Assembly (NCBI GenBank): GCA_012515885.1
Contig: JAAYXN010000059.1
Location: forward strand, 1-32,526
Length of the DNA: 32,526 bases
Source: Rhodococcus sp. (in: high G+C Gram-positive bacteria)
GTDB taxonomy: Bacteria; Actinomycetota; Actinomycetes; Mycobacteriales; Mycobacteriaceae
Direction of reading: 5' to 3'
Position numbers and translations under genes: made by a program. Shown piece by piece: positions 3,137-32,526 of this stretch (position 1 is the first letter of the stretch; each line of letters begins with the position of its first letter). The notes beneath the pieces are model-generated. The model had not been told where the DNA came from, did not search any database, and saw nothing but the letters and a program-made list of their open reading frames with translations.

Positions 3137-3180
3137 AACGTGGCGGCTCGGCGATCTCATCGCCGAGCCACCACGTTTAA
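3135..3180. terminator. Bidirectional intrinsic terminator between two convergent genes
   Basis: AAAACGTGGCGGCTCGGCGAT-CTC-ATCGCCGAGCCACCACGTTTAA: stem of about 18 bp with one G/U-type mismatch, A-tract on one side and T-tract on the other, lying at the stop codons of the transporter and sbcC. Confidence 0.85.
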
Positions 3181-13815: not shown

Positions 13816-15225
13816 ATGACTTCAGATCAAGAGCAGTTCCGGATCGAGCACGACACCATGGGCGAGGTTCGCGTCCCCAGCGACGCACTCTGGCGGGCGC
13901 AGACGCAACGCGCCGTTGAGAACTTCCCCATTAGTGGTCGTGGTCTTGAGCGCGCACAGATCCGCGCGCTCGGCCTCCTCAAGGCCGCCTGCGCCCAGGT
14001 CAATAAGGATCTGGGTTTGCTTGATGCGACCAAGGCTGACGCAATCGTGGCGGCGGCGATGGAAATCGCGGACGGCCTGCACGACGACCAGTTCCCCATC
14101 GACGTGTTCCAGACCGGGTCAGGCACCAGCTCGAACATGAACACCAACGAGGTGATTGCTTCGGTCGCTGCCCGAGCGGGAGTGACGGTGCACCCCAATG
14201 ACGATGTGAACATGTCGCAGTCCTCGAACGACACATTCCCGACGGCGACGCACGTGGCTGCCACCGAGTCTGCGGTTAAGGAACTCCTGCCCGCGATCGA
14301 TCACCTGCGTCTTGCCTTGAACGACAAAGCTGCGCAGTGGAAGACCGTCGTCAAGTCGGGACGTACGCACCTGATGGACGCCGTCCCCGTGACGTTGGGC
14401 CAGGAGTTCAGCGGATACGCCCGTCAAATGGAGGCGGGAATGGAGCGGATCACCGCTGCCCTGCCTCGCGTCGGCGAATTGCCGATCGGTGGCACCGCCG
14501 TCGGGACCGGCCTTAACGCTCCCGCTGGGTTTGGGCCCAAGGTTGTGGACCGGTTGGTAGAGCTGACCGGCCTCGATTCGCTCAGCCCCGCGCGCGACAG
14601 TTTTGAAGCTCAGGCTGCACGCGACGGACTGGTGGAGCTGTCGGGAGTGTTGCGCACGATCGCCGTCTCGCTGACCAAGATCGCGAACGACATCCGGTGG
14701 ATGGGTTCTGGCCCGCTGACCGGCCTCGGCGAGATCCTTCTTCCGGACCTGCAACCAGGCAGTTCGATCATGCCGGGCAAGGTCAACCCGGTGCTGCCGG
14801 AGTCGGTCACACAGGTGGCAGCGCAGGTTGTTGGCAACGATGCGGCAGTCGCTTGGGCAGGCGCTGGTGGGCATTTTGAGCTAAACGTCTATATTCCGGT
14901 GATGGCACGCAACGTGCTTGAGTCCTTGACGCTGCTGGCGAATGTTTCGCGATTGTTTGCTGACCGCTGTGTTGAGGGTTTGGTGGCCAATGAGGATCGG
15001 TTGCGTACCCTCGCAGAATCGTCGCCGTCGATTGTGACGCCGTTGAATTCACTCATTGGCTACGAAAAGGCCGCTGAAGTCGCGAAGACTGCGTTAAAAG
15101 AAAAGAAGACTATCCGGCAAACCGTGATCGATATGGGTCTTGTCGGCGACAACCTGAGCATCGAGGAGCTCGATAAGCGACTCGATGTTCTCGCCATGAC
15201 GGGCGTCGATGCCTCTGACTCATGA
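13816..15225 (+). CDS. fumC: Class II fumarate hydratase
   Basis: [78 protein letters not shown] signature. Confidence 0.96.
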
Positions 15226-15262
15226 GTCGCATCGGGTGAGTACGCCCTAGAGAGAAAGTTGG

Positions 15263-16498
15263 GTGACGGTAGGCATGAGTAGTGTCGCGCCGCGCATCGT
15301 GCGGGTGTCCCCGCTCGACGCCCTCCACACTGGAACACGGTCCTTTGCGGTATTCGGACCGATTGAACCGGTCAGTCGCGACGATATTTATCGACGCCTT
15401 CACCAATTGACGGCGATGGGGCCGACGACACGTGTCGGCCTCATCCCCACCCCCGGGACGACGCAGTGGCAGTACGAGCCGTCGCTGGACAGCGTGATTG
15501 TTGAGGAAGTTCCAGAGCCCGCGAACGCTGCGGAACTGCACGCGGCGCTTCTTGCTTCGCGGTCAACAGCACCGATGCGGATTGTGTCGGCAGGCAAGTA
15601 TCTCGCCACTGAATACGACCACGGCTTCGGTGAGATCGCGTTTGCCCGGTCGCTCCATGAGGTGCTTGCTCTGGGACTTGAGCGGGCTCAGACAACACTT
15701 CCTAGCAGTCGCCTTCGCCCACCACTCAGCGCTCTTGGACTGGTACTCGGCCGACACCCACTGCGCGCTGCGGCGCTGCTGCGTGGACAGGAATCTGCGG
15801 AGGAACCCGGTACGGACGAAGAACTCACCGAGCCGAATGCCGTCGACGTCGATTGGACGCCGTCCACCGCGATGCTCACGTTCACGATGCCGCGCGAGAC
15901 TGTGCAGGCTGTGCGTGACTATCGAGATCAGGCGATGCCGGGGGTCTCGCTCTTTTCACTGCTGACTGCGGCGACCTATCGGATGCTTGCCCGCGAACTC
16001 CAGGCGCAGAGCGCGGTCGCGATCCCCTTCGACTGCCGCCGCTTTCTCCCCAGCCGAATGTTGGTGTGGGGCAATTTCGTGGCGGGCCTTGAGTTCGAAT
16101 TGCCGGCCGATATTTCCGCTGCCAGCCTGCAAGAACGCCTCGCCCAAGCCGCGAGAAACGGTCGCCCGGCAGCCAATGTTCTGGTCAGCGCAGCTAAAGC
16201 ACACGTCGCACTACGGCGGGGTGGACTGCCGCCGATTCCGACGCAGGTCTCGTCCACGCCTCGGCCTCGCGTGTTGTTCTCCTCGATGGGGACGACACCG
16301 CGCAGCGACAACGATCCCTTGGCACTGAAGGAATATGTCGCTAATAGCGATCCGGGTGGTCCCGAGTCGCTCACGGTGTGTTCAGCGAATGTTGGGGGCA
16401 GTGTGCAGACAACGGTGTCTTTTCATTCCAACGTGTTCGACATCGCGACCGTCAGGGATATTTTCCAGCGGCTATATGCAGATCCGCTTAACCACTAG
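15263..16498 (+). CDS. Stand-alone condensation/acyltransferase-like protein (CAT/C-domain/PapA-like superfamily)
   Basis: 411 aa; N-terminal RIVRVSPLDALHTGTRSFAVFGPIEPVSRDDIYRRLHQLTAMGPTTRVGLIP; HHxxxDG-equivalent EYDHGFGEIAF at the expected place; GNFVAGLEF; C-terminal CSANVGGSVQTTVSFHSNVFDIATV like the end of C/WES folds. Family assignment is by fold-pattern reading only. Confidence 0.6.
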   Translation: MTVGMSSVAPRIVRVSPLDALHTGTRSFAVFGPIEPVSRDDIYRRLHQLTAMGPTTRVGLIPTPGTTQWQYEPSLDSVIVEEVPEPANAAELHAALLASRSTAPMRIVSAGKYLATEYDHGFGEIAFARSLHEVLALGLERAQTTLPSSRLRPPLSALGLVLGRHPLRAAALLRGQESAEEPGTDEELTEPNAVDVDWTPSTAMLTFTMPRETVQAVRDYRDQAMPGVSLFSLLTAATYRMLARELQAQSAVAIPFDCRRFLPSRMLVWGNFVAGLEFELPADISAASLQERLAQAARNGRPAANVLVSAAKAHVALRRGGLPPIPTQVSSTPRPRVLFSSMGTTPRSDNDPLALKEYVANSDPGGPESLTVCSANVGGSVQTTVSFHSNVFDIATVRDIFQRLYADPLNH

Positions 16499-16545: not shown

Positions 16546-16564
16546 TTAGCATAGGTGAGCCTAA
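16546..16564 (+). promoter_or_regulatory. Iron box (IdeR/DmdR/DtxR-type operator)
   Basis: TTAGCATAGGTGAGCCTAA matches the actinobacterial consensus TTAGGTTAGGCTAACCTAA at 14 of 19 positions; intergenic, about 65 bp upstream of the likely TTG start of the glycosyltransferase fragment. Confidence 0.75.
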
Positions 16565-16629
16565 GCATAGGCACGCCTTTCCTACTCCAGGTTGAGGCCA
16601 GCCGTCCCCCCGGAACGTCGGAGTTCGAC

Positions 16630-17055
16630 TTGACCTCGAATCACGCCAACGATCGCCTTGCTGTGGTCATCTGCTGCTACACATCTGACCGTCTCCCCAC
16701 CCTCACCCAGGGCATCGACGCTGCACGGTCACAGCTCGCTAGCGGCGATGAGCTGATCGTCGTCGTTGATCACAACGACGACCTCCTTGCTCAACTCACC
16801 GCTCAGCTACCGGCGAGCGACCGCGTCATCGCGAACACGCACACCCGCGGTCTGTCCGGTGCGCGCAACAGTGGCGCCGACGCGGCGTCCGCCGAGGTCC
16901 TCGTGTACCTCGACGACGACGCCGTGCTGCGTGACGGTTCGCTTGATGCCATTCGTGCCGCATTTGCTCGCCCCACCACCGTTGCTATTGGCGGCGCCGT
17001 GCATCCGCGCTGGGAAACCCACTTCGCTCCGTCGTGGTTCCCGGAAGAGTTCGGG
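16630..17055 (+). pseudogene. GT-A/GT2-like glycosyltransferase, 3'-truncated
   Basis: RLAVVICCYTSDRLPTLTQGIDAARSQ...TRGLSGARNSGADAASAEVLVYLDDDAVLRDGSLDAI...GGAVHPRWETHFAPSWFPEEFG, then similarity ends abruptly and the frame reads antisense of the next gene (Arg/Pro-rich nonsense to 17340). Confidence 0.75.
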
Positions 17056-17680
17056 CTTTCATCGCGAGCCGGAAGGTTGCGGCAATGTCTTCGTATTTGC
17101 GGTCTTCGTCCCACGGCCGGTCACCGAGTATGTCGCGGCGGAACAGCTTGGTGCAGGGATACGCCTTTGCGTCCCCCCGCAGAAGCAATCGCGCGAACTC
17201 TTGACCGGACAGCGAGTGCGTGGGATACGACGGTTCGTCGACACCCAACACGACGCCGTCTTCGTCGACGCGGTGGGTGCGGCACACCGCAAAGTCCGCG
17301 CCGTCGCCGTCCTCAAGCGCACCCGCCAACTTTTCAATGAACTGCGCGTCAGCAACGTCGTCGGCGTCGAGGAACCAGATGAGTTCCCCCGTCGCGGCGG
17401 CTAGTCCTGAGTTGCGTGCTGGTCCCGGTCCACGGTTAACAGGGTGCGTGACGACGTGGTACTTGATGTGGCGCTCGTCTAAGAAGGCGCACGCAATCGA
17501 GATCGACTCGTCGCCGCCGCAATCGTCGACGAGGATGATTTCGTCGACGCTTCGCGTTTGGTCCAGCACTGATTGCAACGTCGCGCTCACGTAGGGGATG
17601 CAGCGGTAGACGGGGATGATGACGCTAACGCGATTTCCGCGACCGTCGCTGCCGTGTCCTTTCTCCCTGCGGATCGTCAC
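17056..17680 (-). pseudogene. GT2 glycosyltransferase, 3'-truncated
   Basis: NRVSVIIPVYRCIPYVSATLQSVLDQTRSVDEIILVDDCGGDES...GPGPARNSGLAAATGELIWFLDADDVADAQFIEKL...YEDIAATFRLAMKA, then continues as the antisense of the forward glycosyltransferase to a stop at 16985. GTG start overlaps the upstream EEP gene stop (GTGA). Confidence 0.75.
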
Positions 17681-18657
17681 GGGTTACTCGCTTCTGTGGC
17701 CCCCGCTGTCGTGAATACTGCAAAGAGCCCGTGATGATCTGAGCCGGGAAGATCGACGACGTTGAACTCCTGCACGGTTAAGCCGCGGATGATCATCCGA
17801 TCGATCCCCACAAGCGCGGGGTACCACGTGTTTGCCGGGTACGAAGGTGTGATTCCGGCCCCCACACGCTCGGCGACGTCGTCGAATCCGTCGGTGAGGA
17901 ACGTCCGATACCGGGTGTGTGAGTACGTCGAATTGAAGTCTCCGCTGACGAGGACCGGCACCTCCGGGTCCTGTGCGGCGCGGCTATGAACGGCCTCGCG
18001 TAGGCGTTCCATTTCGTCGGCCCACCGCCACGCGGGTTCGGGGTAGGGCGCTCTCGGGTGCACCGCGAACAGCGCCAGTTGTTCGCTGTCAGATACTTCG
18101 ACAGTCGCAGACAGGTTGGCCATTGCAAAGTGCGGCAACAAGTGTTCGTCGCTGAGCGGGAACTTCGAGTAGATCCCGGTGCCGCCGCCCCCATCAGGTT
18201 TGGGGACGAGGAACTGCTCGGGTAACAACTGGTCGATACCTTCATCAGCGAGCCGCTGCACCGCGTCGTCGGTGAGTTCTTCAATGGTCAAGATGTCGAC
18301 ATCGCGGCGAGAAATCTGCTGAACCAAATCCGCTGCGTCGGATTCGCCGAGCATGATGTTCGCTTGCAGCACACGCAGGGTTGTTCCCTCCCCGGGCTCG
18401 TCCAGGCTGCCCACATACAGGGGAGCCTGCGTCGCCATCGCGGCGGCAACCACGACGGTTGCCACTGCCGCAATCACCCACTTTCGAGCGAGAAGCAGGA
18501 TGACGATGCCTACGACTCCGACAACGACGAGGAGTGGGACGAACGACGACGCCAGGATCAGGATGTTGCTTTCGGGCCCGACGTAGTGCGTCACCACGCC
18601 GAGCACCGAAACACCAACCGCGATATAGGCAATCGCGAGGAAGAACTTACGGATCAC
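17677..18657 (-). CDS. Membrane-anchored endonuclease/exonuclease/phosphatase (EEP) family protein
   Basis: Three hydrophobic N-terminal segments, then TLRVLQANIMLGESD, DILTIEELTDD, GIYSKFPL, VLVSGDFNSTYSHTRYR, GSDHHGLFAVF (EEP catalytic motifs). Confidence 0.85.
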   Translation of the reverse strand: MIRKFFLAIAYIAVGVSVLGVVTHYVGPESNILILASSFVPLLVVVGVVGIVILLLARKWVIAAVATVVVAAAMATQAPLYVGSLDEPGEGTTLRVLQANIMLGESDAADLVQQISRRDVDILTIEELTDDAVQRLADEGIDQLLPEQFLVPKPDGGGGTGIYSKFPLSDEHLLPHFAMANLSATVEVSDSEQLALFAVHPRAPYPEPAWRWADEMERLREAVHSRAAQDPEVPVLVSGDFNSTYSHTRYRTFLTDGFDDVAERVGAGITPSYPANTWYPALVGIDRMIIRGLTVQEFNVVDLPGSDHHGLFAVFTTAGATEASNP

Positions 18658-20012
18658 CTCTCGGCCAGCTCCGCTCCAGAATCGCTACCGGAATGAGGTT
18701 CGCCGTCGACGACGATGGGGGTGGTCTCCCCCGATACTCGGCGCAACCCGCCCGCGAACGCCAGCAAGATCAGCGACAGCACGAAGCCGCTCAGGCTGTA
18801 GTAGATGACGGCGTCGGCGGCCGAGAAGATTGAGCCGAACGCGCCAGCAATAACGGCGCCGACGGCGAGGCCACCAGCTTGCTGAGCAGAAAACAGACCG
18901 TTGACCCGGCCCAGCATCGAGGTGGGTGTGTGGATTTGTAGCAGCGAGAACCGCAGCACTTCCTGCACCGAACTCAGTGCGCCGGCAAGGACGAGGAAGA
19001 CGAACGCGACAGCGATGGCCGCGACAGCGCCCACCGCGGCCTGCACTAGGAACGCTAATGCACCTGCGACCAGCAGGACCATGCCTGGCCGCGCCGAGCG
19101 TGTGAGCCAACCGCTCGTCACCGTCGCGACGACAGCGCCGACCGCCATGGCCGCGTACAACATTCCCGCTGCGCGCGAGTCGCCACCGAACTGCTGGTCG
19201 ACCAGTGCGGGAACAAGCACGAGGACACCGCCGCCGAGCATCGCGATAATGCCTGATGCCATCACGCCGCCGACGACTCGTGAGCGAAGCAGCAGATCGC
19301 CGACTGTTTCTTCGCGAGCCTGCTCGCCTGCGGCCGCCGACGACTTGTCGCTGTCACGTTGCTCCCCATCATGTTGCTCGCCGTCATGTTTGGGGGGCAG
19401 TAGCGGAGGCAAGCCGTACAGCAGGGCGATCGTGATGGCAGTGCCGATTGCCGCGATCCAGTAGTTCCATGCCACCGACGCGGCAGCGATCACCATTCCG
19501 CCGAGGGCCGGTGAGACGACGGCACCGGCCCGGGCGCCCAGAACATTCAGTGCACCCGCACCAACCAACTGGTCTTTCGGGATGAGCGCGGGGATGACGG
19601 CGAGGAGCGCCGCCACACTAATCGAACCGATCAGCCCGTTGATGAACGCGAGAACAAAGATCGCGATCACCGACGGTGAGTCGAGCATGGCGTTGACCGC
19701 CAAACCCACGAAGGTGATGCCGGATACTGTGCGCGCAAACAGGATCAGGAGACGACGGTCGTAGCGGTCGGCGAGCCCACCACCAACGATCATGCCGACG
19801 ATGGCGGCGCCACCTTCGACTGCCGCGACCAAACCAACGAGGAACGATGACTCTGTGAGCGCGTACATCTGGATCGGCACACCCACCATGAGCATGCCGA
19901 TACCGAAGATGGAGATTGTGCGTGCAATGAACACCCTGCGGAACGGCGCACTTTCGCGCAGTGGCCGCAGGTCCATCAGTATCCGGCTATCAGCCTTCGA
20001 ACTTTCCGGCAT
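18654..20012 (-). CDS. MFS transporter, EntS-like siderophore exporter
   Basis: MPESSKADSRILMDLRPLRESAPFRRVFIARTISIFGIGMLMVGVPIQMYALTESSFLVGLVAAVEGGAAIVGMIVGGGLADRYDRRLLILFAR...; about 12 TM; between siderophore-binding protein and EEP genes; GTGA overlap with the next gene. Confidence 0.85.
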   Translation of the reverse strand: MPESSKADSRILMDLRPLRESAPFRRVFIARTISIFGIGMLMVGVPIQMYALTESSFLVGLVAAVEGGAAIVGMIVGGGLADRYDRRLLILFARTVSGITFVGLAVNAMLDSPSVIAIFVLAFINGLIGSISVAALLAVIPALIPKDQLVGAGALNVLGARAGAVVSPALGGMVIAAASVAWNYWIAAIGTAITIALLYGLPPLLPPKHDGEQHDGEQRDSDKSSAAAGEQAREETVGDLLLRSRVVGGVMASGIIAMLGGGVLVLVPALVDQQFGGDSRAAGMLYAAMAVGAVVATVTSGWLTRSARPGMVLLVAGALAFLVQAAVGAVAAIAVAFVFLVLAGALSSVQEVLRFSLLQIHTPTSMLGRVNGLFSAQQAGGLAVGAVIAGAFGSIFSAADAVIYYSLSGFVLSLILLAFAGGLRRVSGETTPIVVDGEPHSGSDSGAELAER

Positions 20013-20013
20013 A

Positions 20014-21087
20014 TCAGCGTGCCGAGCCCTTCTCGATCGCCTCAGCGATCTCCGGTGCAACCTGATCGGTCGCCCAATCCAGGGACAGCGCTGACGGGAA
20101 GCCCACCGCGTTGGGGCGTCCGGTGTTGCGGGCCAGCGACACGACAGCGCCAGCCTGGACGGCGGGCAGCTGGTTCCATGCTTCGAACTTGGTCAGGTAT
20201 TCGAGGTCACCGGTCGGTGAGACGACGACGAGGACGTCCGCGTCGAGATCACCGATGTTTTCGTACGACAGCAGTCCGCGGCCGTCGGGATCGACAGGCA
20301 GCGTGGTGGCGTAGGGGCTCAGCGTCAAACCGAGTGAGCTGAGGAACTGTCCGATACCGCGCTCATCGGAGGCGAGGACAGCGAGCTGGCCGCCGCCCAT
20401 GTCACCGATGATGGCGTTGTAGGTCTTGCCCTCGAACTCGGGGTGCGCCTGCTTCGCTTCTTGAAGGCTTGCGTCGGCCTGCGCGATGACTTCTTCAGCC
20501 TTCTCCGGGATACCGAGAGCTTCGGCGACCTTGCGTGTCGAGTCCTGCCACGGCTCACCGTTGGCCTGAGTGTCGAAGTGCACGACGGGGATCTGCGGGT
20601 TCAGCTGGTCAAACGAGGTCTGATCCAGGCCCCAGAATCCGGTCGAGACGATGATGTCCGGTTCAAGCGCAACGATGTTTTCGGTCACTGATCCCAGGCC
20701 CGCATCGAGCTGCAGGAGTTCCGGGGTGGCCGATCCGAGGTCCTTGAGGGCCTGCTCTTCCCACGGCCACACGCCGGTGTTGTTGGTGGCAGCGAGGTTC
20801 TGGCGGTCCACGGGCAGCGCGATGGGTGTCACGCCGAGCGAGAGCAGAATGTCTGCGTCCTGCGGGGACAGCGGCAGCGCCCGTACCGGCGGTGCCTCGA
20901 CCGTCGCCTCACCGAACTTGCCGGTGAGGGTCACCGGGAAGGCGTCGGCGTTGGCCGATACCGGTGCGGACGTGTTGTCGGCGTCATCGTTCGAGCTGCA
21001 CGCACTGACACCCACAACTAGCGCTGCAGCCGCGAGGGCGGCCCCCAACCTGATCCGGCCCTTGCGGGTCCACTGCAGTTTCATCAT
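20014..21087 (-). CDS. Iron-siderophore ABC transporter substrate-binding lipoprotein (FepB-like)
   Basis: Signal peptide with lipobox VSAC|SSN; VRALPLSPQDADILLSLGVTPIALP...LEPDIIVSTGFWGLDQTSFDQLNPQIPVVHFDT...; immediately downstream of the NRPS with ATGA overlap. Confidence 0.88.
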   Translation of the reverse strand: MMKLQWTRKGRIRLGAALAAAALVVGVSACSSNDDADNTSAPVSANADAFPVTLTGKFGEATVEAPPVRALPLSPQDADILLSLGVTPIALPVDRQNLAATNNTGVWPWEEQALKDLGSATPELLQLDAGLGSVTENIVALEPDIIVSTGFWGLDQTSFDQLNPQIPVVHFDTQANGEPWQDSTRKVAEALGIPEKAEEVIAQADASLQEAKQAHPEFEGKTYNAIIGDMGGGQLAVLASDERGIGQFLSSLGLTLSPYATTLPVDPDGRGLLSYENIGDLDADVLVVVSPTGDLEYLTKFEAWNQLPAVQAGAVVSLARNTGRPNAVGFPSALSLDWATDQVAPEIAEAIEKGSAR

Positions 21088-24000
21088 GATCCTCTCGTTG
21101 TGCTCTCGAACGTCTGACTTGAAGATTCCATGTGCGTCGCCAATTCTGCGATGGATTGCGCCGCAAACACCGCTGCCGCGGTGGTGTCGAAGCCTGCCTC
21201 GCGGACCTTCCGCAGCAGCGCCATCACGCCGATGCTGTCGAGTCCTAGCGAGAAGACGTCGTCGTCAGCTCCGACTTGATCCACACCCAAAACCTGCGCG
21301 ATCGCATCGCACAGCACCTGTTCTGCGGGCGTCGACGGTTCACGATAAGCCGTCAGGTCGAGTTCTGGGCGTGGCAGCGCACGGCGGTCAACCTTGCCGT
21401 TGGCTGATGTCGGGATTGCTGCCAGGACGGTGATCGTTGCCGGAACCATGTAGTCGGGCAGAAGCGTGCGCAGGTCTGAGCGCAGCGCATCGAGGCTGAA
21501 TGTGCCCTGGTCCGCGGGCACCACGTAGGCGCATAGTGCTGTGGGTGCACCCAGATCTGTCCGGGCGATGACGACCGCGTCTTGGATGTCGGCGCGGGCG
21601 AGGAGTGTCGCCTCAATTTCGGCGGGCTCCACCCTGTGTCCACGAATCTTGACCTGGTCATCGCCGCGGCCGCGGTACGCAATGGTGCCGTCTGGCAGCC
21701 ACCGAGCGCGGTCCCCGGTGCGGTACATGCGGGTTCCGTCGCTGTCCGCCACGAAACGTGTTGCGGTCAAAGCTGATTCGCCGCGGTATCCGCGTGCGAG
21801 TCCTTCGCCGGACAGGTACAGCTCGCCGGTCACACCGACCGGTACTGGCTGTAGCCAGCGGTCGAGGATGCGCGCCGCGGTGCCTGCGACAGGGCCGCCG
21901 GCCACCGGCTGCGCGGACTGCGACGTGCGGGCCACCAGTGCATCGACGGTGCTTTCGCTGGGTCCGTACAGGTTGAACGCCAGTGTCCCGCGGGTGGCAG
22001 CCAACCCGTTCAACCGGTCCCACAGCGGACCCGCGACGGCCTCGCCGCCGAATCCGAGTGTCGTCGGCCCCTCGTCGCCCACGAGTCCCGCATCGAGCAG
22101 CTGGGTCAGGTGTGATGGAGTGACTTCCAGGAAGTCCCAGCGTTGACGGTGTGCCTGCGCCACCATCTGCACGGGATCGCGGCGGGTGTCCTCATTGACC
22201 AGGTACAGCGTGTGCCCATCGAGCAGCCACAACTGCGGCTGCCAGGACGCATCGAACGCGAAAGACCACGCGTGCCCGACGTGCAGGTGGTCACGGCCAG
22301 CCTGCGCTGTCGTCGGCTGGTAGAGGTCCGCGCGGTGACTGTGCCACAGCGCGACGAGGCCACGATGCACTGCCTCCACAGCTTTCGGTGTGCCTGTGGA
22401 ACCTGACGTAAACACCACATACGCGGGGTGCTCCGCGAGCAGCGGAGCCTTCCGATCGGTATCGGTCAGCGGCGCATCCGAGTAGGCAGCAAGCGCATCG
22501 TCGAACGTCGGGTCATCAAGAACAACCACGTGACCGCGATACGTGCCTGGAAGCGCTGACGCTGTCGATTCTGTAGTGAGAACAACCGTGGGCTGCGCGG
22601 TCTCCAGGATCGTTTCGATGCGCGCCGTCGGGGTCGCCGGATCGATCGCGACGTAGGCGCCGCCCGCCGTCATGACACCGAAGATCGCGGACAGTGCGTG
22701 TGTCGTACGCGGCAGCAGCAAGGCGACCGGAACTTCCGGGCCGACGCCTTGAGCCACAAGGTGGCGCGCGAGGCGACGCACCCGGCTTGCCAGTTCGGTA
22801 AACGACCACTCCCGCTCGCCATCAACGACGGCGACTCGATCGGGGTACTGCTCGGCAGCGTGATCGAACAGGTCTACCGCAGTGTTCGCGGCGCCGCTGA
22901 TCCCTGGCCGCGACGACGCCGTGTCGATGAGCTGGCGATCCTGCACTGGAATAGCCGACAGCTGCGAAAGCCGTTCGGTCGGTGCAGCGTTCGCGAGCTG
23001 ACCAAGAAGTACGGTCAGTCCATCGGCGAGGCGCTGTACAGTCTCGCGATCGAACAGATCGCTGCTGTATTCAATGACGCCAACCACGACATCAGCGCTC
23101 TCGCCTGCGTCAGCACCAGCGAGCCCGGTGTATTCGACGAAGTCGAAAGACAAGTCGAACTTTGACGTATCCGGCTCGATCGGCTGCGGCGTGATGCCGC
23201 CGCCAAGCAACTGGGTCGGATCAGGCTGTGTCAGATACACAATCATCGTCTGGAACAGCGGATGCACCGAGCGCACACCGGCCCGTCGACCTGACACAGC
23301 GTCAACGACCTGGTCGAACGGCACATCCTGGTTCTCGAACGCAGCGAAGTCGGTGGCCCGCACGCGGTCCAGTAACTGTGCGACCGTCGGGTCGCCAGAG
23401 AGATCCGCGCGCAGCACAAGCGTGTTGAGGAAGAAGCCCACCAACGGCTCCAGGCTCGCATCGCGTCGACCGGAGACCGGTGTGCCCAACGGAATGTCTT
23501 CCCCGGCACCAGATTTGCTGAGAAGCGCCGCGACAGCAGCGTGCATGAGCATGAACATGCTCACCCCATGATCGGCGGCAAGTGCCCGCAAACCACGCAG
23601 CGTAGGTGCATCGACGCCCAGCGGGACAGCGCCACCACGATAGGTGAACCGGGCCGGACGAGACCGATCAGTGGGTAGTTCAATCACGTCAGGAAGGTCC
23701 GCGAGCGCACTCTTCCAGTAGTCGAGCTGACCGGTCGCCAACTCACTCGGAGCACCCGCGTCGCCGAGGATCTCACGCTGCCACAGCGCATAATCCGCGT
23801 ACTGAACATCGAGTGGCTCCCACGCCGGGCTCTGCCCCACCTGCCGCAAACCATAAGCGGTAGCGAGGTCCGTGAGCAGCGCCGACGTCGACCACTCATC
23901 CACCGCAATATGGTGAATGACCAGGGCAACGACGGTGTCATTGCTCGCGTCCCGCTCGGTGTCATTGCTCGCGTCCCGCTCAGTATCGCCCTCTACGGAG

Positions 24001-27000
24001 AACAGGCTGACCCGCACAGGCACTTCGAACTGCAGATCGAAGCGGTGGCGAGTGGCCTCACGCAGCGCCGCGGTGAGGTCGGCTTCCGCAATCGTCTGAG
24101 TCGAGACATCGACACGCACCTGGTCGGTGGGCACGATGACCTGGACGGGCTCACCATCGGGGCCTGCCGGGTAGATGGTGCGCAGCGCCTCGTGGCGAGC
24201 AAGCAGGTCACCGATAGCCGCGGCAAACGCGTCAGCGTCGACGCCGCCCGCAACGCGCCACGAGATCGGCACGTTGTACACGCCAGCGCCCCCCGCTACC
24301 GCAGTGTCAGCAGATACGGCGGCATCGGCTGAGGCCGCAGCTCCGAGTTGTTCCACGAGCCACATGCGTCGCTGCGCTGCCGAAACGGGGATGCCTTCGC
24401 CGGACTCGGGTCGCTCGTAGCGGGTCAGCGGCGGCAGTGCGGTGCCGATCGCTCTGGTTCCCAGGACGATAGCAAGGGCGGCCGGTGTGGGGGACTCGAA
24501 AATATCCCGTACACCGAGGTCAACGCCCCATTCCCGCTTGATCGCATTGACCAGGCGGATCGCGGACAGTGAATGCCCGCCAAGCGCGAAGAAGCTGTCG
24601 TCGGGGCCGACGCTGTTGCCGTCTTCGCTATCGGCGAGTACGCCAGCGAACAGTGCGCACAGGCGAGCTTCCGTCTCAGTGGACGGTTCCCGCTGGGCGC
24701 GTGCTGAGGTGTCCGGGGTGGGCAGTCGGCGACGATCCAGTTTGCCGTTGGGGCTCACCGGGATCTCGTTGATTTCCATAATCACTGACGGCACCAGGTG
24801 GTCCGGAATCGCACCGATCAGTGCACTGCGTACCGCAGCGGTGTCGAATGCGCTGCGTACCGCGGCGGTATCGAATGCGGTGGCGTCCGCTGCCGCCACG
24901 ACGTAGCCAACAAGGATGGGTCCGGTTTCGGCGTTGTGAACCGAGACGGCAGCACGGGAAACACCGGGAGCTGCTTCCAGGTAGCCGGTGACCTCACCCA
25001 GTTCAATGCGCATACCGCGGATCTTGACCTGGTCGTCGGCGCGGCCGAGGAAGTCGAGTTCACCGCGTGCATTCCAGCGTGCGACGTCGCCGGTGCGGTA
25101 CAGGCGTGATGCGGCGTCGCCAAACGGATCGGCAACGAATCGCTCCGAGGTGAGCGCGGAACGACCCAGGTAGCCGTCGGCGACCTGAATGCCGCCGATG
25201 TAGAGGTCACCGGAGACGCCTTGCGGGACGGGCCGCAACCGCGCATCGAGGACATACATCTGGACGCCTTCACCGACGCGCCCGATGGTGGGCGCGCTGT
25301 CGCTGTGGCTCACGTCAGCTGCGAGGGTCACTTCGACCGCCGCTTCGGTGGGGCCGTACAGGTTGTCCAAACGCACCTGTGGCAACCGCTGTGCGACCCG
25401 ACGCGCTGTCGATGCCCCCAGCGCTTCACCGCTGGCGACGATGCGCCGCAGCGAGGTCAGGTTCTCTGGTGTAGCGAGCGCCTCATCCAACATCGACGGG
25501 ACAAAGTGTGCGATGGTGACGGCGTGGTCGCGGATGAGTGCGCCTACTTCGGCCGGATCACGGTGCGCCTGCGGGCCAGCGACGATGGCGGTGGCGCCGT
25601 GCAGGAACGGCCAGAACAGTTCCCAGACGGAGACGTCGAAGCTGGCCGGGGTCTTGACGATGATCCGGTCGGCGTCGGTGATCGCGTCGTCGGCCTGCAC
25701 CCAGTCGAGTCGGTTGGTGACGCTGCGATGCGCGACGACGACGCCCTTGGGGTTGCCGGTGGAGCCGGACGTATAGATCACGTAGAGCGGATGCGCTGTG
25801 GTGACTGCTCCCCCACGCTCAGCATCGGTGATCGCGGCCGTGTCACTGCTGGTGATCGCGGCCGCTGTTTCCGGGTCGTCGAGAACGATGACTGAGCTGG
25901 CGGTGTCAGGTAGCTCGACTCCGGTGGCAGTCAGTACCGATGCGGGCTTCGCGTCGGTGAGTAGGTACTCAATTCGGCTCTGCGGCAATGTTGTATCGAT
26001 CGGCAGGTACGCGGCGCCCAACTGCACGGCGGCGTGAATGGCCACGATCTGGTCGATCGAGCGGGGAACGGCGATGGCAACAATGTCACCGGAGCGGGTT
26101 CCCTGCGCCGCCAAGTACCGCGCTATCTGCGCGGTGCGTGCAGCGAGTTCGCGGTAGGACAGTTCGACGCGCTCGCCCGAGAGCGTGGCGCCGACCAGCG
26201 CGGTCGCCTCGGGTGTGCGCTGCGCGGCAGCGCGCAGCGCCTCACCCACAGTGGAGGCAGAAATCGACTGCTGCGGAGCGGTATTCGCGATTGCGGGACC
26301 ACCGTCTCCGAGCGCCAAGGCCGCGCTGGCTGCGGCGTCAGAGAGCACGGTCAATTCATCGATGCGTGCCTGTTCACCCGCACCGCAGGCGCCCAACAGC
26401 TGAACGAGAGCGTCGGCAAGTGACTGTGCTGTCGCCTCGTCGAACAGATCAGTCGCGTACTCGACGTTGATCGAAATCTCGCCGGTGTCCGGCGCGTCGA
26501 CGTAGGTGATCGTGAGATCAAACTTGGCGCGCACATTCGACAGCGGCTCCCACTCGGTGGGGATGCCGAGGAAATCAGGCAGCACAGCGGGGCGCTGCAG
26601 GTAGCTGAGCATGACCTGGAACAGCGGGTTCCGGCCGTCAACACGTGCAGGCGCCAGCTTTTCTACGAGAAGCTGGAACGGCAGCTCTTGATGCTCCATC
26701 GCTTTGAGGTCAGCGTCGCGCACACGCTCGACAAGCTCACCGAAGGTGGGGTTGCCGGACACGTCGGTGCGCAGTACCACGGTGTTGACGAAGAAGCCCA
26801 CCAAATCGTCGAGGGCACTGTCGCTGCGTCCCGATGCGGGCGAGCCGACGACGATGTCCTCCCCTGCTCCGAACCGAGACAGGGCCGCGGCAGTGGCTGC
26901 GTGCAGAACCATGAAGGGGCTCGCGCCGTGGGCGTCCGCAATCGTTCGCAGCGCATTACCGACATGGGGATCGACGGTGGCGCGCACTGTTCCGGCATTG

Positions 27001-30000
27001 CCGGTGGGGTGCGCGGGGCGACTACGGTCAGTCGGCAACGGCATTTCTTCAGCCAGACCCTCAAGGGTCTGCGTCCAAAATTCCAGTTCCGATTCGCTCG
27101 CACCGGAGTCGAGGATCTGCTGTTGCCACAGCGTGTAGTCGGCGTACTGCACGGGCAGTTCCTGCCACTGCGGCGCCGTCCCTGACACTCGCCCCAGGTA
27201 AGCGCGGGTGAGGTCACCGAGCAGAGGCGCATCGGACCATTCGTCGGTGGCGATGTGGTGCATCGCGATCGCGATGAGGTGCTGCTGCTCGCCGACCTTG
27301 ATGACGGTCAGTCGAATCGGAAGGTCTTCGCGGAGATTGAAATTCGCGGTGAGCTTCTCGAAAGCGATGGTGCGTGCTGAGGCCTGCGGGTCAGCGTCTG
27401 CGCTGACGTCGAGCACCGTGAACTGCAACTGCTCGGCGGCGCTGCGCGGATCGAGGATCAGCTGGTAGGCGTCGTCGTTATTGGCGGTATCCACACCGAT
27501 GAGGGTGCGCAGGGTTTCATGACGCGTCACCACATCCACGAACGCCGCCTGCAATGCGGTGACGTCAAGGTCGCCGCGCAGAATCGCCGCGTGCGCGTAG
27601 TGGTAGGGCACGCTGTCGCGTTGCAACTGCTGCAGCATCCACAGCCGTTCCTGCGCCGCGGAAAGCGGCACCCGCTCCGGGCGGGGTCCAGCGACAATCG
27701 CCGGCTTCGCTTGCTGCGCGGACGGCAGCCGCTTCGCGATAGCCGCGACGGTGCGTGCCTCGAAAAGGTCGCGAATGCTCAACTGAACGTCGAACTCCGA
27801 ACGCACTTTGGAGACCATACGCATAGCGATCATCGAGTGACCGCCCAGTTCGAAGAAGTCGTCTTCGGCACCGACAGTGTCGATCCCGAGTAGCTCCGCG
27901 AAAATCTCGCACAGGATGCGTTCTTCACGTGTTGCAGGCTCGCGGCTGCCTACCGCTGGGCGCAGCGTCGGTTCGGGAAGTGCCTTGACGTCGAGCTTGC
28001 CGTTGACCGTCATCGGCAGTACATCGACGGCCTGGACGTGGCTGGGCACCATGTAGTCGGGCAGCAGCTCGCGCAGATGCTTGAGGACGGGTGCGGAATC
28101 GAAACTCGCCGCATCACCGGAGGCGGGAACAACGTACGCCGCGAGGCGTTTGGTGCCGGGAACAAGCGGATCCGCGACGGCGATCACCGCGGCAGTGGCC
28201 ACCAGCTCATGTGATTCGAGGACCGAGTCGATCTCGTGGAGTTCAACGCGGTAGCCGCGGATCTTCACCTGATCGTCAGTGCGGCCCAGGTAATCAATGT
28301 TGTCATCCCACACGCCGGAGTCGTCACCGGACGCATACGCAGGACGCCTACGCACCAGGTCACCGGTGCGGTACATACGTGCGCCCGGTTCAGCGAAAGG
28401 ATCGGCAATAAATCGCTCAGCAGTCAGGTCGAAACGACCGAGGTAGCCGCGCGCCAAACCCACACCAGCGATGTACAACTCACCGGGAACACCGTCCGGC
28501 ACCGGCCGCAGGAACGAGTCCAAAATGTGCGCCCGCGTGGCCCGGATAGGGACACCAACCGTGGGTGTTTCGCTGTCGTCGGTGCCCGCACCGAGCGTGT
28601 TAATCGTGTATTCGGTGGGGCCGTACAGGTTGTAACCGAGCGTTCCGTCGGTGTCACGCAAGCGATTCCACACCGAGTCCGGTACCGCTTCACCGCCAAG
28701 AAGCACCAGCGGTGGGCGGTGACGCTCGCCCGAATCGTCGAGCAGTCCGTCAGCGAACAACTGTGTCGCGTAGGTGGGCGTGACGTTGACGACATCGATG
28801 GCGTGGGCGTCGCAGTACTCGACCAGCGCCAGCGAGTCCCGGCGCAGTTCTTCGTCGCACACGTGCACTTCGTGGCCTTCAACGAGCCACAGCAGCTCCT
28901 CCCACGACATGTCGAACGCGAACGAAACGGTGTGGGCGACGCGCAGCCTCGCCGTGTCTCCATTCGGACCGCTAGCCGCAGCCACCACGGGATCGAAGAT
29001 CGCGGCCTGGTGGTTGCGCTGCATGTTCGTCAGACCGAGGTACGGCGTGATGACGCCCTTCGGTTTGCCTGTCGAACCGGAGGTGTAGATGACGTAGGCG
29101 GGGTGACGGAGCCGACCTGGGGTGCCCGGCGCGAACGCACCGAGATCGCTGTCGCGCACCGCAGCGTCCGGGTTGGCCTGTCCGACGTACACGCACTGGT
29201 CTGCAGGCAGATCCAGGCGTCCTCGCACCGTATCGGCGGTAACGAACAGGGACGGCTGTGCGTCCTCAATGATGGTGGTCAAGCGTCCGTCTGGCTGGTC
29301 GAGTTCGAGCGGCAGATACGCCGAACCCGTACGCAGCACCGCGAACAGTGCCACCACCATGTCAATCGACCGTGGCAGGCCGAGAGCGATCACCACTTCC
29401 GGACCGGCGCCGCGGGCTAGCAGCTCAGACGCGAGCGTCTCGACGGCGTCAGCGAGTTCACGGTAGCTGTAGCGCACCTCATCGAAAACGAGGGCGGTGA
29501 CATCGGGAGTCTGGTTCGCTTGCGCGAGAAGCATTTCCGCGACGGTGATGTCATCAACATCCGGCAGCGGGGTCTGCCACTGCACCCGGGTGGCCGCCAA
29601 CTCGGTCGGAGTGAGCGCATCGACGGAACCGACAAGGCCGTCACTGTCGGCGGCGAACAGTTCCAGCAGCGCACGGAAACGCTCATGCAGTGCGCGTGCC
29701 CGCTGGACGGGAATGAGATCGGGGCGGTAATCGATTTTGATGTGCAGAGTTTGTGACGGCGACACCACCACAGCCAACGGGTAGTGGGTGTGGTCAAGGC
29801 TGTCTTCGCTGACAATGCCGTAGCGCTTGGACTGCGCCTCGATCGTGGCGTTGTCTTTGAAGTTCTGCAGCACGAACAGGGTGTCGAACAGTTCGGTGCG
29901 GCCCAGTGCCTGCTGGATTTCGCCGAGCCCGAGGTACTCGTGTTCCATGCGCTCGACGTAGTCGTCCTGCATGCGCCGCAACAGCTCCGTGAGCGTCTCA

Positions 30001-32526
30001 CCGGGGTTGAGCGTGACGCGGATAGGGACGGTGTTGAGGAACATGCCGACCACGCGGTCCAGGCCGTCGATCTCGGTGGGGCGACCGGCCACTGTCGAGC
30101 CAAACACGATGTCGCTGCGGCCTGATTCTGCGGAAAGCAGCAGACCCATCACCGCATTCATCAGCGCGTTGAGCGTGACGCCAGCGCGGCGTGCACTCGC
30201 ACGCAGCGCCGTCGTCAGCTCTTCAGATACATACGATTCGATGCGCTCAGGCACCTGCGCGGTGCGTTCACGAATGGGTCCAGCGAGCAGCGTCGGCTCA
30301 TCGAAACCGTCGAAAGCCTCACGCCACGCCTGCGCTGCTGCCTGCGGGTCGCGCTGAGCGAGCCACGCCAGGTAGTCGGTGAACTGTGCGTTCGACAGCT
30401 GCGGATCGTCGTCGGCATAGAACGCGAGTAGCTGGTCGACGACGAGGGCACCGGACCAGCCGTCCCACACGATAAATTCGCGGTTGACGACGAGGCGGTC
30501 GATGCCGTCCAGGTGGATGAGCAACATGCGCCACAGCGGCGGTGCAGTCAGATCGAAGGGTTCGTGGCGATCTGCTTCCATCAGTTCCTGCGCGCGTGCC
30601 TGCTGGGCCTGCGGCGCAAGGTCGGTGAGATCTACCTCGGTAAACGGAACTTCCAGGCCGGAGCTAGACCCACGGGCAATGAACTGGACTGGATCAGCGA
30701 CGCCGTTGCCGACGAAACCAGCACGCACTGTGGGGTTGGCGTCGAGGAGCTTGGCTGCGGCGCCGCGCATCCGCGCAACATCGATGCGATGACCAAAGTC
30801 GAGGGAAAACTGCGCGGTGTAAATGTCGGTGCCCTCGGAATCGAAGGTCGACTGGAAGTACAGGCCACGCTGGAGCGGTGAGAGCGGCCAAATATCTTCC
30901 ACCACAGCGTCAGTAGCAGCCTGGACGCTATCGATTTCCGCCTGAGTCAACGAAATATGTTGCACGTCAGAGGGAGTAAGACCTGCTCCCCCGCTGAGAC
31001 TAATGATCTCGACAGCAGCCTGCTCCCACAGCGCCGCCAATTCACCCAGCTGTGCGTGATCGAGACGGCCGTCGGTGCGCAGTACCGCACCGGCAGCACT
31101 CGTGTTAATCGCAACATCGAGTGCGTAGTCACGCAGAGCTTCACCGTCGACACGAACCAGCACCTGCGGCGCGGACAGCGGCGCCAACGCCGGACCAGCC
31201 TGAACGTTGGAGTAGCGGAGCATCGGCCAGCCGATGCCGTCATCGGGTACCCGCCGCGCAGCCTCTTTCGCTGAACGCAACGCTTCAAGAGCGGCACCGT
31301 CAGTATTGGCGGCACCGCCGCCGTCAGCATTGGCGGCACCGCCGCCGGAAAGTTCCAGCCGAACCGGAGTGGTCCAGCCGATCGGACCCACTGTGCGATC
31401 AAGTCCGCCGGTGCGGCCGTCACGCCACACATCGATCAGCAGGGAGTCAGCCTGACGAGCAGAGAACCGGCTGACGGCGAGAGCAGTCACTGCCGCCCAC
31501 ACGTCGGCGGCGGTACCGCCCACCAGGGCTGCCGCGTCGTCGGCGCCGACAGGAAGGGCGATCGTCACCTCATCGGGGGTCGCCGCCGCGCCGCCGCTAA
31601 CAAGTTCAGCGCCGGGTGCAGCGATTTCCATCCACGTTGAGATCTCCGCCAAACGTTCAGGCGCTGCTGCCGCCGCAGCAAAGACCCGCGCGTGCGACTT
31701 CAGGGAGACGGGCACGGTCGGCAACTGCGGTGCCAGACCGGCGACAATCGCACCCAGAGCGCGCCGAAGATCGCTGACCACGATCTCCCACGAGCGGGGG
31801 TCGAGGACGGACTTGGCTCCGCTGACGCGTAGTTCACTGGGCTCGTCGCTGATCTCGACAGCCAGGACCCGGCCGACCGATACGTCAGTATCAATCTTGG
31901 TGGCTGCGTCAGCATCAATCTTGGTGGCTCCGTCAGCATCAGACTCGGCGACAATGCTTTCCGCTAGCGCATCGAGGTCGATGGCGTCTGGAACTTCCAG
32001 CGTCCACAGGATGGGCGCGAGGGCGCTGAGCTTGGCGCGCGTGCCGTGGTGATGTTCAAGTACTGCGCGAACAGCGTCAACCACATGCTCACGTTGCGTG
32101 CCCCGCGGAAGCGCGAACTCTGCGGTGTATTCACTGACCGACGTGGCAGCGCTGTCTCGGCGCATCGCCACAGCTGCCGGTAGCGCCAGCGGGCCGATCC
32201 CATCCGTGTCGTGCTCGCCGCGCGGAGCCGCCGTCCATACCGGTGCATCGAGGTCACCGAGGACGTCATCGATAAATTCGTTGACGCCAGCAGAAAGGTT
32301 GCGAGCTGCATCGACGCAATCGGGGTGGGCACGCAGGTTGATGCCGATCGGCTCGCCTGCCTTGTACAAAATGATCGTGTACTCAAGCTCGCCCACCGGG
32401 CCCGACGACAGCAAGTGCGCTTCGGTGTCGGTGCCCTTGCCGAGTGCGCTACGGGAAACAGCGGCGGGCATCACGTTAATTCCGATGCCGGGCGGCCGCC
32501 ACGACGGATCACGCTCGGCGAGTTCC
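21084..32526 (-). CDS. Multimodular non-ribosomal peptide synthetase, 5' end outside the window; visible order (C-tail)-E*-C*-A(hOrn)-T-C-A(Ser-like)-T-C-A(?)-T, no TE
   Basis: ORF of at least 3796 aa, open to the window edge (ELAERDPSWRPPGIGINVMP upstream of the tracked GTG). Three A domains (YTSGSTGKPKG, YTSGSTGNPKG, FTSGSTGTPKA), three carrier domains (LGGHS, LGGHS, LGLDS), C-domain motifs; ends T-domain then ESSSQTFESTTRGS-stop. Confidence 0.97.
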   Translation of the reverse strand, partial: ELAERDPSWRPPGIGINVMPAAVSRSALGKGTDTEAHLLSSGPVGELEYTIILYKAGEPIGINLRAHPDCVDAARNLSAGVNEFIDDVLGDLDAPVWTAAPRGEHDTDGIGPLALPAAVAMRRDSAATSVSEYTAEFALPRGTQREHVVDAVRAVLEHHHGTRAKLSALAPILWTLEVPDAIDLDALAESIVAESDADGATKIDADAATKIDTDVSVGRVLAVEISDEPSELRVSGAKSVLDPRSWEIVVSDLRRALGAIVAGLAPQLPTVPVSLKSHARVFAAAAAAPERLAEISTWMEIAAPGAELVSGGAAATPDEVTIALPVGADDAAALVGGTAADVWAAVTALAVSRFSARQADSLLIDVWRDGRTGGLDRTVGPIGWTTPVRLELSGGGAANADGGGAANTDGAALEALRSAKEAARRVPDDGIGWPMLRYSNVQAGPALAPLSAPQVLVRVDGEALRDYALDVAINTSAAGAVLRTDGRLDHAQLGELAALWEQAAVEIISLSGGAGLTPSDVQHISLTQAEIDSVQAATDAVVEDIWPLSPLQRGLYFQSTFDSEGTDIYTAQFSLDFGHRIDVARMRGAAAKLLDANPTVRAGFVGNGVADPVQFIARGSSSGLEVPFTEVDLTDLAPQAQQARAQELMEADRHEPFDLTAPPLWRMLLIHLDGIDRLVVNREFIVWDGWSGALVVDQLLAFYADDDPQLSNAQFTDYLAWLAQRDPQAAAQAWREAFDGFDEPTLLAGPIRERTAQVPERIESYVSEELTTALRASARRAGVTLNALMNAVMGLLLSAESGRSDIVFGSTVAGRPTEIDGLDRVVGMFLNTVPIRVTLNPGETLTELLRRMQDDYVERMEHEYLGLGEIQQALGRTELFDTLFVLQNFKDNATIEAQSKRYGIVSEDSLDHTHYPLAVVVSPSQTLHIKIDYRPDLIPVQRARALHERFRALLELFAADSDGLVGSVDALTPTELAATRVQWQTPLPDVDDITVAEMLLAQANQTPDVTALVFDEVRYSYRELADAVETLASELLARGAGPEVVIALGLPRSIDMVVALFAVLRTGSAYLPLELDQPDGRLTTIIEDAQPSLFVTADTVRGRLDLPADQCVYVGQANPDAAVRDSDLGAFAPGTPGRLRHPAYVIYTSGSTGKPKGVITPYLGLTNMQRNHQAAIFDPVVAAASGPNGDTARLRVAHTVSFAFDMSWEELLWLVEGHEVHVCDEELRRDSLALVEYCDAHAIDVVNVTPTYATQLFADGLLDDSGERHRPPLVLLGGEAVPDSVWNRLRDTDGTLGYNLYGPTEYTINTLGAGTDDSETPTVGVPIRATRAHILDSFLRPVPDGVPGELYIAGVGLARGYLGRFDLTAERFIADPFAEPGARMYRTGDLVRRRPAYASGDDSGVWDDNIDYLGRTDDQVKIRGYRVELHEIDSVLESHELVATAAVIAVADPLVPGTKRLAAYVVPASGDAASFDSAPVLKHLRELLPDYMVPSHVQAVDVLPMTVNGKLDVKALPEPTLRPAVGSREPATREERILCEIFAELLGIDTVGAEDDFFELGGHSMIAMRMVSKVRSEFDVQLSIRDLFEARTVAAIAKRLPSAQQAKPAIVAGPRPERVPLSAAQERLWMLQQLQRDSVPYHYAHAAILRGDLDVTALQAAFVDVVTRHETLRTLIGVDTANNDDAYQLILDPRSAAEQLQFTVLDVSADADPQASARTIAFEKLTANFNLREDLPIRLTVIKVGEQQHLIAIAMHHIATDEWSDAPLLGDLTRAYLGRVSGTAPQWQELPVQYADYTLWQQQILDSGASESELEFWTQTLEGLAEEMPLPTDRSRPAHPTGNAGTVRATVDPHVGNALRTIADAHGASPFMVLHAATAAALSRFGAGEDIVVGSPASGRSDSALDDLVGFFVNTVVLRTDVSGNPTFGELVERVRDADLKAMEHQELPFQLLVEKLAPARVDGRNPLFQVMLSYLQRPAVLPDFLGIPTEWEPLSNVRAKFDLTITYVDAPDTGEISINVEYATDLFDEATAQSLADALVQLLGACGAGEQARIDELTVLSDAAASAALALGDGGPAIANTAPQQSISASTVGEALRAAAQRTPEATALVGATLSGERVELSYRELAARTAQIARYLAAQGTRSGDIVAIAVPRSIDQIVAIHAAVQLGAAYLPIDTTLPQSRIEYLLTDAKPASVLTATGVELPDTASSVIVLDDPETAAAITSSDTAAITDAERGGAVTTAHPLYVIYTSGSTGNPKGVVVAHRSVTNRLDWVQADDAITDADRIIVKTPASFDVSVWELFWPFLHGATAIVAGPQAHRDPAEVGALIRDHAVTIAHFVPSMLDEALATPENLTSLRRIVASGEALGASTARRVAQRLPQVRLDNLYGPTEAAVEVTLAADVSHSDSAPTIGRVGEGVQMYVLDARLRPVPQGVSGDLYIGGIQVADGYLGRSALTSERFVADPFGDAASRLYRTGDVARWNARGELDFLGRADDQVKIRGMRIELGEVTGYLEAAPGVSRAAVSVHNAETGPILVGYVVAAADATAFDTAAVRSAFDTAAVRSALIGAIPDHLVPSVIMEINEIPVSPNGKLDRRRLPTPDTSARAQREPSTETEARLCALFAGVLADSEDGNSVGPDDSFFALGGHSLSAIRLVNAIKREWGVDLGVRDIFESPTPAALAIVLGTRAIGTALPPLTRYERPESGEGIPVSAAQRRMWLVEQLGAAASADAAVSADTAVAGGAGVYNVPISWRVAGGVDADAFAAAIGDLLARHEALRTIYPAGPDGEPVQVIVPTDQVRVDVSTQTIAEADLTAALREATRHRFDLQFEVPVRVSLFSVEGDTERDASNDTERDASNDTVVALVIHHIAVDEWSTSALLTDLATAYGLRQVGQSPAWEPLDVQYADYALWQREILGDAGAPSELATGQLDYWKSALADLPDVIELPTDRSRPARFTYRGGAVPLGVDAPTLRGLRALAADHGVSMFMLMHAAVAALLSKSGAGEDIPLGTPVSGRRDASLEPLVGFFLNTLVLRADLSGDPTVAQLLDRVRATDFAAFENQDVPFDQVVDAVSGRRAGVRSVHPLFQTMIVYLTQPDPTQLLGGGITPQPIEPDTSKFDLSFDFVEYTGLAGADAGESADVVVGVIEYSSDLFDRETVQRLADGLTVLLGQLANAAPTERLSQLSAIPVQDRQLIDTASSRPGISGAANTAVDLFDHAAEQYPDRVAVVDGEREWSFTELASRVRRLARHLVAQGVGPEVPVALLLPRTTHALSAIFGVMTAGGAYVAIDPATPTARIETILETAQPTVVLTTESTASALPGTYRGHVVVLDDPTFDDALAAYSDAPLTDTDRKAPLLAEHPAYVVFTSGSTGTPKAVEAVHRGLVALWHSHRADLYQPTTAQAGRDHLHVGHAWSFAFDASWQPQLWLLDGHTLYLVNEDTRRDPVQMVAQAHRQRWDFLEVTPSHLTQLLDAGLVGDEGPTTLGFGGEAVAGPLWDRLNGLAATRGTLAFNLYGPSESTVDALVARTSQSAQPVAGGPVAGTAARILDRWLQPVPVGVTGELYLSGEGLARGYRGESALTATRFVADSDGTRMYRTGDRARWLPDGTIAYRGRGDDQVKIRGHRVEPAEIEATLLARADIQDAVVIARTDLGAPTALCAYVVPADQGTFSLDALRSDLRTLLPDYMVPATITVLAAIPTSANGKVDRRALPRPELDLTAYREPSTPAEQVLCDAIAQVLGVDQVGADDDVFSLGLDSIGVMALLRKVREAGFDTTAAAVFAAQSIAELATHMESSSQTFESTTRGS
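21360..22890 (-). other. NRPS adenylation domain 3, substrate not assigned
   Basis: Pocket residues FDASWQ, FLEVTPSH, GFGGEA, LYGPSESTVD give DAQEGGLVDK. Confidence 0.75.
22960..24420 (-). other. NRPS condensation domain 3
   Basis: IPVSAAQRRMWLVEQL..., IHHIAVDEWS. Confidence 0.85.
23934..23981. repeat. Perfect 24-bp tandem duplication (x2) inside NRPS C3
   Basis: GGTGTCATTGCTCGCGTCCCGCTC twice, identical; encodes DTERDASN-DTERDASN. Confidence 0.95.
24823..24876. repeat. 27-bp tandem duplication (x2, 3 mismatches) inside NRPS A2
   Basis: GCACTGCGTACCGCAGCGGTGTCGAAT / GCGCTGCGTACCGCGGCGGTATCGAAT; encodes AFDTAAVRS repeat. Confidence 0.95.
25827..25874. repeat. 24-bp diverged tandem repeat inside NRPS A2
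   Basis: GGTGATCGCGGCCGTGTCACTGCT / GGTGATCGCGGCCGCTGTTTCCGG; first 14 nt identical. Confidence 0.6.
26340..27690 (-). other. NRPS condensation domain 2
   Basis: VPLSAAQERLWMLQQL..., MHHIATDEWS (both His present; HHxxxDE). Confidence 0.85.
28000..29560 (-). other. NRPS adenylation domain 1, predicted substrate L-N5-hydroxyornithine
   Basis: Pocket residues read by alignment to GrsA: D(FDMSWEE) M E, N(VVNVTPTY), L/G(VLLGGEA), L/I/N(LYGPTEYTIN), K = DMENLGLINK. Confidence 0.8.
29590..30900 (-). other. NRPS condensation domain 1, degenerate HHxxxDG
   Basis: WPLSPLQRGLYFQS...; catalytic motif reads NREFIVWDGWS (EF in place of HH) at about 30459-30485. Confidence 0.8.
31297..31344. repeat. 24-bp tandem duplication (x2, 1 mismatch) inside NRPS E-like domain
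   Basis: CCGTCAGTATTGGCGGCACCGCCG / CCGTCAGCATTGGCGGCACCGCCG; encodes GGGAANADGGGAANTD. Confidence 0.95.
31883..31943. repeat. 24-bp tandem repeat (about 2.5 copies) inside NRPS E-like domain
   Basis: CGTCAGTATCAATCTTGGTGGCTG / CGTCAGCATCAATCTTGGTGGCTC / CGTCAGCATCAGA; encodes DADGATKIDADAATKIDTD. Confidence 0.95.

Follow-up and report, generated by a model that had tools for sequence, protein, structure and literature searches.

Two truncated glycosyltransferase genes mark a probable deletion in a conserved siderophore-type locus of Rhodococcus sp.

The window analysed here is one entire contig (C12) of a Rhodococcus sp. draft genome (G000), 32,526 bases long and without N, and the draft consists of 2.83 Mb in 509 contigs with a completeness of 75.8%, i.e. 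24% of the genome is missing. The left flank of the region of interest (13816..16498) carries on the plus strand a Lyase_1/FumaraseC_C-type lyase (13816-15225) and a protein without Pfam or NCBIfam match (15263-16498). These are followed by the 5′ part of a double-domain family-2 glycosyltransferase gene (GT-A, 16555..17054, plus strand; Pfam PF00535, E=7.6e-16), which is met on the minus strand by the 5′ part of a second family-2 glycosyltransferase gene (GT-B, 17055..17680; PF00535, E=1.3e-31). The right flank, also on the minus strand, encodes an exo/endo phosphatase-like protein, an EntS-like MFS exporter and a FepB-like substrate-binding protein (17677..21087), and a multimodular NRPS (21084..32526) that runs off the contig end. 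Overlapping DmdR/IdeR-like iron boxes (TTAGCATAGGTGAGCCTAAGCATA, 16546..16569) precede GT-A, with matches of 14/19 at 16546 and at 16551 to the DmdR/IdeR consensus, the sites being defined by consensus match only. Since the GTG codon at 16555 is located inside this iron-box-like sequence, the true start of GT-A is probably further downstream.

Two overlapping ORFs were present as reported in the initial annotation, 16555-17340 (+, 261 aa) and 16985-17680 (-, 231 aa), with a common break point around 17,055, where similarity to four congeners stops at residue 167 of the plus ORF and residue 209 of the minus ORF. The junction is bordered on the left by the first 167 codons of GT-A and on the right by the first ca. 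208 codons of the convergent GT-B. The congeners compared were G002, G013 (R. rhodnii NBRC 100604), G010, and G008 (R. globerulus NBRC 14531). Up to residue 167, the GT-A fragment was 49-63% identical to its counterparts in the four relatives, and the Pfam GT2 match covered residues 37-157 (profile positions 2-124 of 168). Identities of the GT-B fragment were 78, 64, 53 and 53% to G002, G013, G010 and G008, respectively, with the GT2 match extending over residues 19-185 (profile 1-164 of 168). In the relatives, GT-A is a double-GT2 protein of ca. 680-695 codons and GT-B has ca. 330-340 codons, both continuing past the break. It is therefore correct that neither gene in the window has a normal C-terminal part: the GT-A remnant keeps part of the first GT2 domain and has lost the second, GT-B is short of ca. 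120 C-terminal residues, and neither combines a complete GT2 domain with a normal C-terminus.

At the junction (GAGTTCGGGCTTT, 17047..17059), similarity of both GT-A and GT-B to 4/4 relatives ends. The breakpoint sequences read GAGTTCGG(G/C)TGG in GT-A of the relatives, GGCGCCCATCGCGAGCC in GT-B of G002, and GAGTTCGGGCTTTCATCGCGAGCC in the window. The earlier proposal that the ends were joined at a few bases is compatible with these sequences, which allow a microhomology of no more than a few bases. Neither remnant showed decay before the junction; their substitution patterns resembled those of neighbouring genes, and base composition was similar to the left and right. The undecayed state of the remnants implies that the joining event is either young or artificial.

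Beyond the junction, each ORF continues antisense to the other gene, the plus-ORF tail (17056..17340, +) to GT-B and the minus-ORF tail (16985..17054, -) to GT-A. According to the initial annotation, the fused ORFs, if expressed, would be novel overlapping convergent proteins, i.e. short glycosyltransferases with new C-terminal tails, and 356 common bases are indeed open in both frames. Such openness is, however, expected by chance. When GT-B or GT-A was recoded with the codon usage of the window and ORFs at least as long were counted, the plus ORF was equalled or exceeded in 35% of the simulations (P=0.35, GT-B recoded) and the minus ORF in 97.5% (P=0.975, GT-A recoded). In addition, no homologue with the same tails or overlapping convergent arrangement was seen among the relatives compared, and GT-A, left with an incomplete first GT2 domain, is a poor candidate for a functional protein. 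Expression of both ORFs as functional convergent genes is accordingly very improbable, and the overlapping tails are by-products of G+C-rich antisense reading, not new proteins.

A DNA search of 60 relatives located both glycosyltransferase halves in G002, G013, G010 and G008, with the orientation to each other that they have in the window. The halves in G002 occupy 868,965-869,545 and 886,671-887,240 on one strand, and the spacing of the breakpoints in the relatives ranges from 17.1 kb (G002) to 19.1 kb (G013). The left flank order of ExoVII large subunit, DUF4245 protein, lyase, unknown protein and GT-A is common to G002 and G013, and the right flank order of GT-B, phosphatase-like protein, EntS-like exporter, FepB-like protein and NRPS was found in 4/4. 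The remaining window genes are all collinear with G002. Alignment to these strains thus agrees with the suggested deletion of both 3′ ends and everything between them, as all four possess full-length copies of both genes, in the same orientation and 17-19 kb apart, with intervening genes. Another option raised initially, a simple inversion breakpoint, is excluded by the GT-A/GT-B orientation being conserved in the four relatives. A junction shared with relatives was likewise rejected: in 0/8 Rhodococcus/Gordonia loci with 10 kb of flank beyond the GT-B 3′ end was GT-A found there.

The interval missing from the window comprises in G002 the remainder of GT-A, to which a second GT2 domain belongs, along with genes for a large membrane protein, a GH16 protein, two flippase-like proteins, further GT2s, a 4-hydroxybenzoate 3-monooxygenase-like (PHBH-like) protein, a DhnA-type aldolase together with a DHQS-II-type protein, an LLM oxidoreductase, and an A-T-TE protein. 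Homologues of these genes are present in the same interval of G013, G010 and G008. The supposition that an ornithine N-hydroxylase had been lost here was not supported, as no ornithine hydroxylase was seen in the interval of the relatives, which instead comprises polysaccharide-type genes, an aminohydroxybenzoate-type pair, two oxygenases and the A-T-TE protein. The aldolase and DHQS-II pair matched the models of bagremycin and ferroverdin biosynthesis (BagB/FevI, BagC/FevH), but below the NCBIfam cut-offs and with DHQS-II scanned only in part, and the pair was not found in the 75.8% complete G000 draft. An equivalent iron box is located before GT-A in G002 (L014:9006), and together with the iron-box-like site in the window it suggests that the missing interval is probably iron-regulated.

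The continuation of the window was found on contig C287 (L118; 19,134 bases). Window positions 32514-32526 overlap C287 positions 19122-19134 by 13 bases, one NRPS reading frame runs through, and in G002 the ends of both contigs fall at the same place in a single NRPS, so that they can be placed side by side. The joined locus contains together genes for 2,3-dihydroxybenzoate synthesis and activation, NRPSs and iron-siderophore transport, as is characteristic of a catechol siderophore cluster. EntA-like and EntE-like proteins were the best NCBIfam matches, below equivalog cut-offs, and the start of an EntB-like protein is at the C287 end. The EntS-like protein scored above its NCBIfam cut-off, and the FepB-like protein, a SIP, the NRPSs and iron-box-like sites complete the set. 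On the basis of gene content, the locus would represent an NRPS/catechol siderophore-type cluster with a predicted catecholate product.

The loci of R. rhodnii, R. globerulus, G002 and G010 share with the window the flanking genes and the orientation of GT-A and GT-B, as well as the EntS-like exporter, the FepB-like binding protein, the large NRPSs and the SIP reductase, and, where that part was compared, the EntA and EntE homologues. They differ in keeping the 17-19 kb interval and the full-length glycosyltransferase genes, both of which the window lacks. The locus is a known kind of system with a probable deletion, not a new kind. Heterobactin, rhodochelin/rhequichelin and rhequibactin are likewise products of NRPS siderophore clusters of Rhodococcus (PMC5550956); no identity with these is claimed. 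A literature search returned no paper on a Rhodococcus cluster combining the functions seen here.

One component of the missing interval has a counterpart on C287. The ORF at 2928-6341 of this contig encodes half a condensation domain and A-T-TE. Its T-TE portion groups as sister with the TE of the G002 interval (tree support 85/86) and is, in difference to the relatives, fused to another adenylation domain. The adenylation part resembles an NRPS module and shares 57% identity with G002 and 54% with its own neighbour. Given an identity of only 54%, a recent duplication of the adjacent NRPS module was rejected as the source of the C-A part. The fusion preserves the reading frame at a domain boundary and ends 21 bases away from the SIP gene, and it is preceded by a good ribosome-binding sequence before its GTG and by an iron-box-like site at 2861. 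It is situated between SIP and the EntE-EntA-EntB block (C287 182-2648), the orientation of which relative to SIP and the NRPS genes is opposite to that in G002, G013 and G010, the three relatives compared for this feature. As an in-frame fusion at a domain boundary, 21 bases from the next gene, is hard to obtain from a random chimera, the arrangement indicates genuine lineage-specific remodelling, although C287 originates from the same draft.

The rest of the interval was searched for in G000 with the interval DNA and with four proteins spread over the interval as probes. No orthologue in G000 was obtained with the second glycosyltransferase domain of GT-A (66-69% in relatives), the PHBH-like oxygenase (69-70% in relatives) or the LLM protein (79% in relatives), nor with DHQS-II, a protein probe without control in the same search. 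Apart from short hits to paralogues, the DNA scans gave a single real match, the T-TE on C287; matches to GH16 on contigs C265 and C187 were dismissed as interval pieces, being other GH16 proteins in unrelated surroundings. With these probes, no part of the interval except the T-TE was found in the rest of G000, and as the draft is 75.8% complete, this absence is weak evidence, which with a quarter of the genome missing perhaps favours a true loss about fourfold.

The main rival to a deletion is an assembly or amplification artefact, in which a chimeric fragment of MDA type or an ordinary misjoin would link two sites 17-19 kb apart in an intact locus, the interval being simply missing from the draft. 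The fragmentation into 509 contigs at 75.8% completeness and the lack of decay in the joined halves are compatible with this, and chimeras of the same geometry are known from MDA, where 58/475 chimeric junctions were in direct orientation between segments >10 kb apart (PMC1855051), an amplified origin of the present DNA being conceivable. Moreover, the junction is known from this one genome in a single draft, and C287 also differs from the relatives in order and orientation. Against an artefact, the ends share only few bases, presumably too few for a k-mer repeat collapse, no interval piece other than the T-TE occurs on any contig, and the T-TE stands in a clean new context. We thus consider an artefact distinctly the less probable explanation, though one of real weight, and a real and young deletion scar in a conserved siderophore-type locus the probable one.

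From these observations we infer that the ancestor would have possessed, as the congeners do, an intact NRPS siderophore-type locus under iron control, in which an illegitimate deletion of ca. 17-19 kb, of the microhomology or end-joining type, joined the insides of two convergent glycosyltransferase genes and took both 3′ ends along with the genes between. In G000 a contig end carries a Ku fragment, and the relatives have whole Ku genes, so the cell can probably carry out end joining; the data would also fit replication slippage. Both remnants would presumably be inactive, the plus-strand one retaining the iron-box-like promoter, and product release, formerly the task of the lost A-T-TE protein, was seemingly retained through the T-TE on C287. 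It is possible, yet tentative, that the lineage rebuilt its siderophore assembly line, fusing the relocated T-TE with another adenylation domain, preceded by its own iron box, and thereby freeing the glycosyltransferase/aminohydroxybenzoate interval for loss, with a simplified siderophore as the outcome.

The full genome is estimated at ca. 3.7 Mb (2.83 Mb at 75.8%), which is smaller than all 27 congeners compared (4.4-10.3 Mb) and as expected for a gene-losing lineage. Matches to LLM, FAD_binding_3-type and GT2 families were also fewer in the G000 draft than in congeners, and these low counts together with the small estimated genome suggest gene loss in the lineage.

For annotation, the two overlapping ORFs are to be corrected to gene remnants. 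If the junction is real, the natural deletion marks a dispensable part of a conserved Rhodococcus siderophore-type locus, and the product would be directly comparable with and without the glycosyltransferase/aminohydroxybenzoate block.
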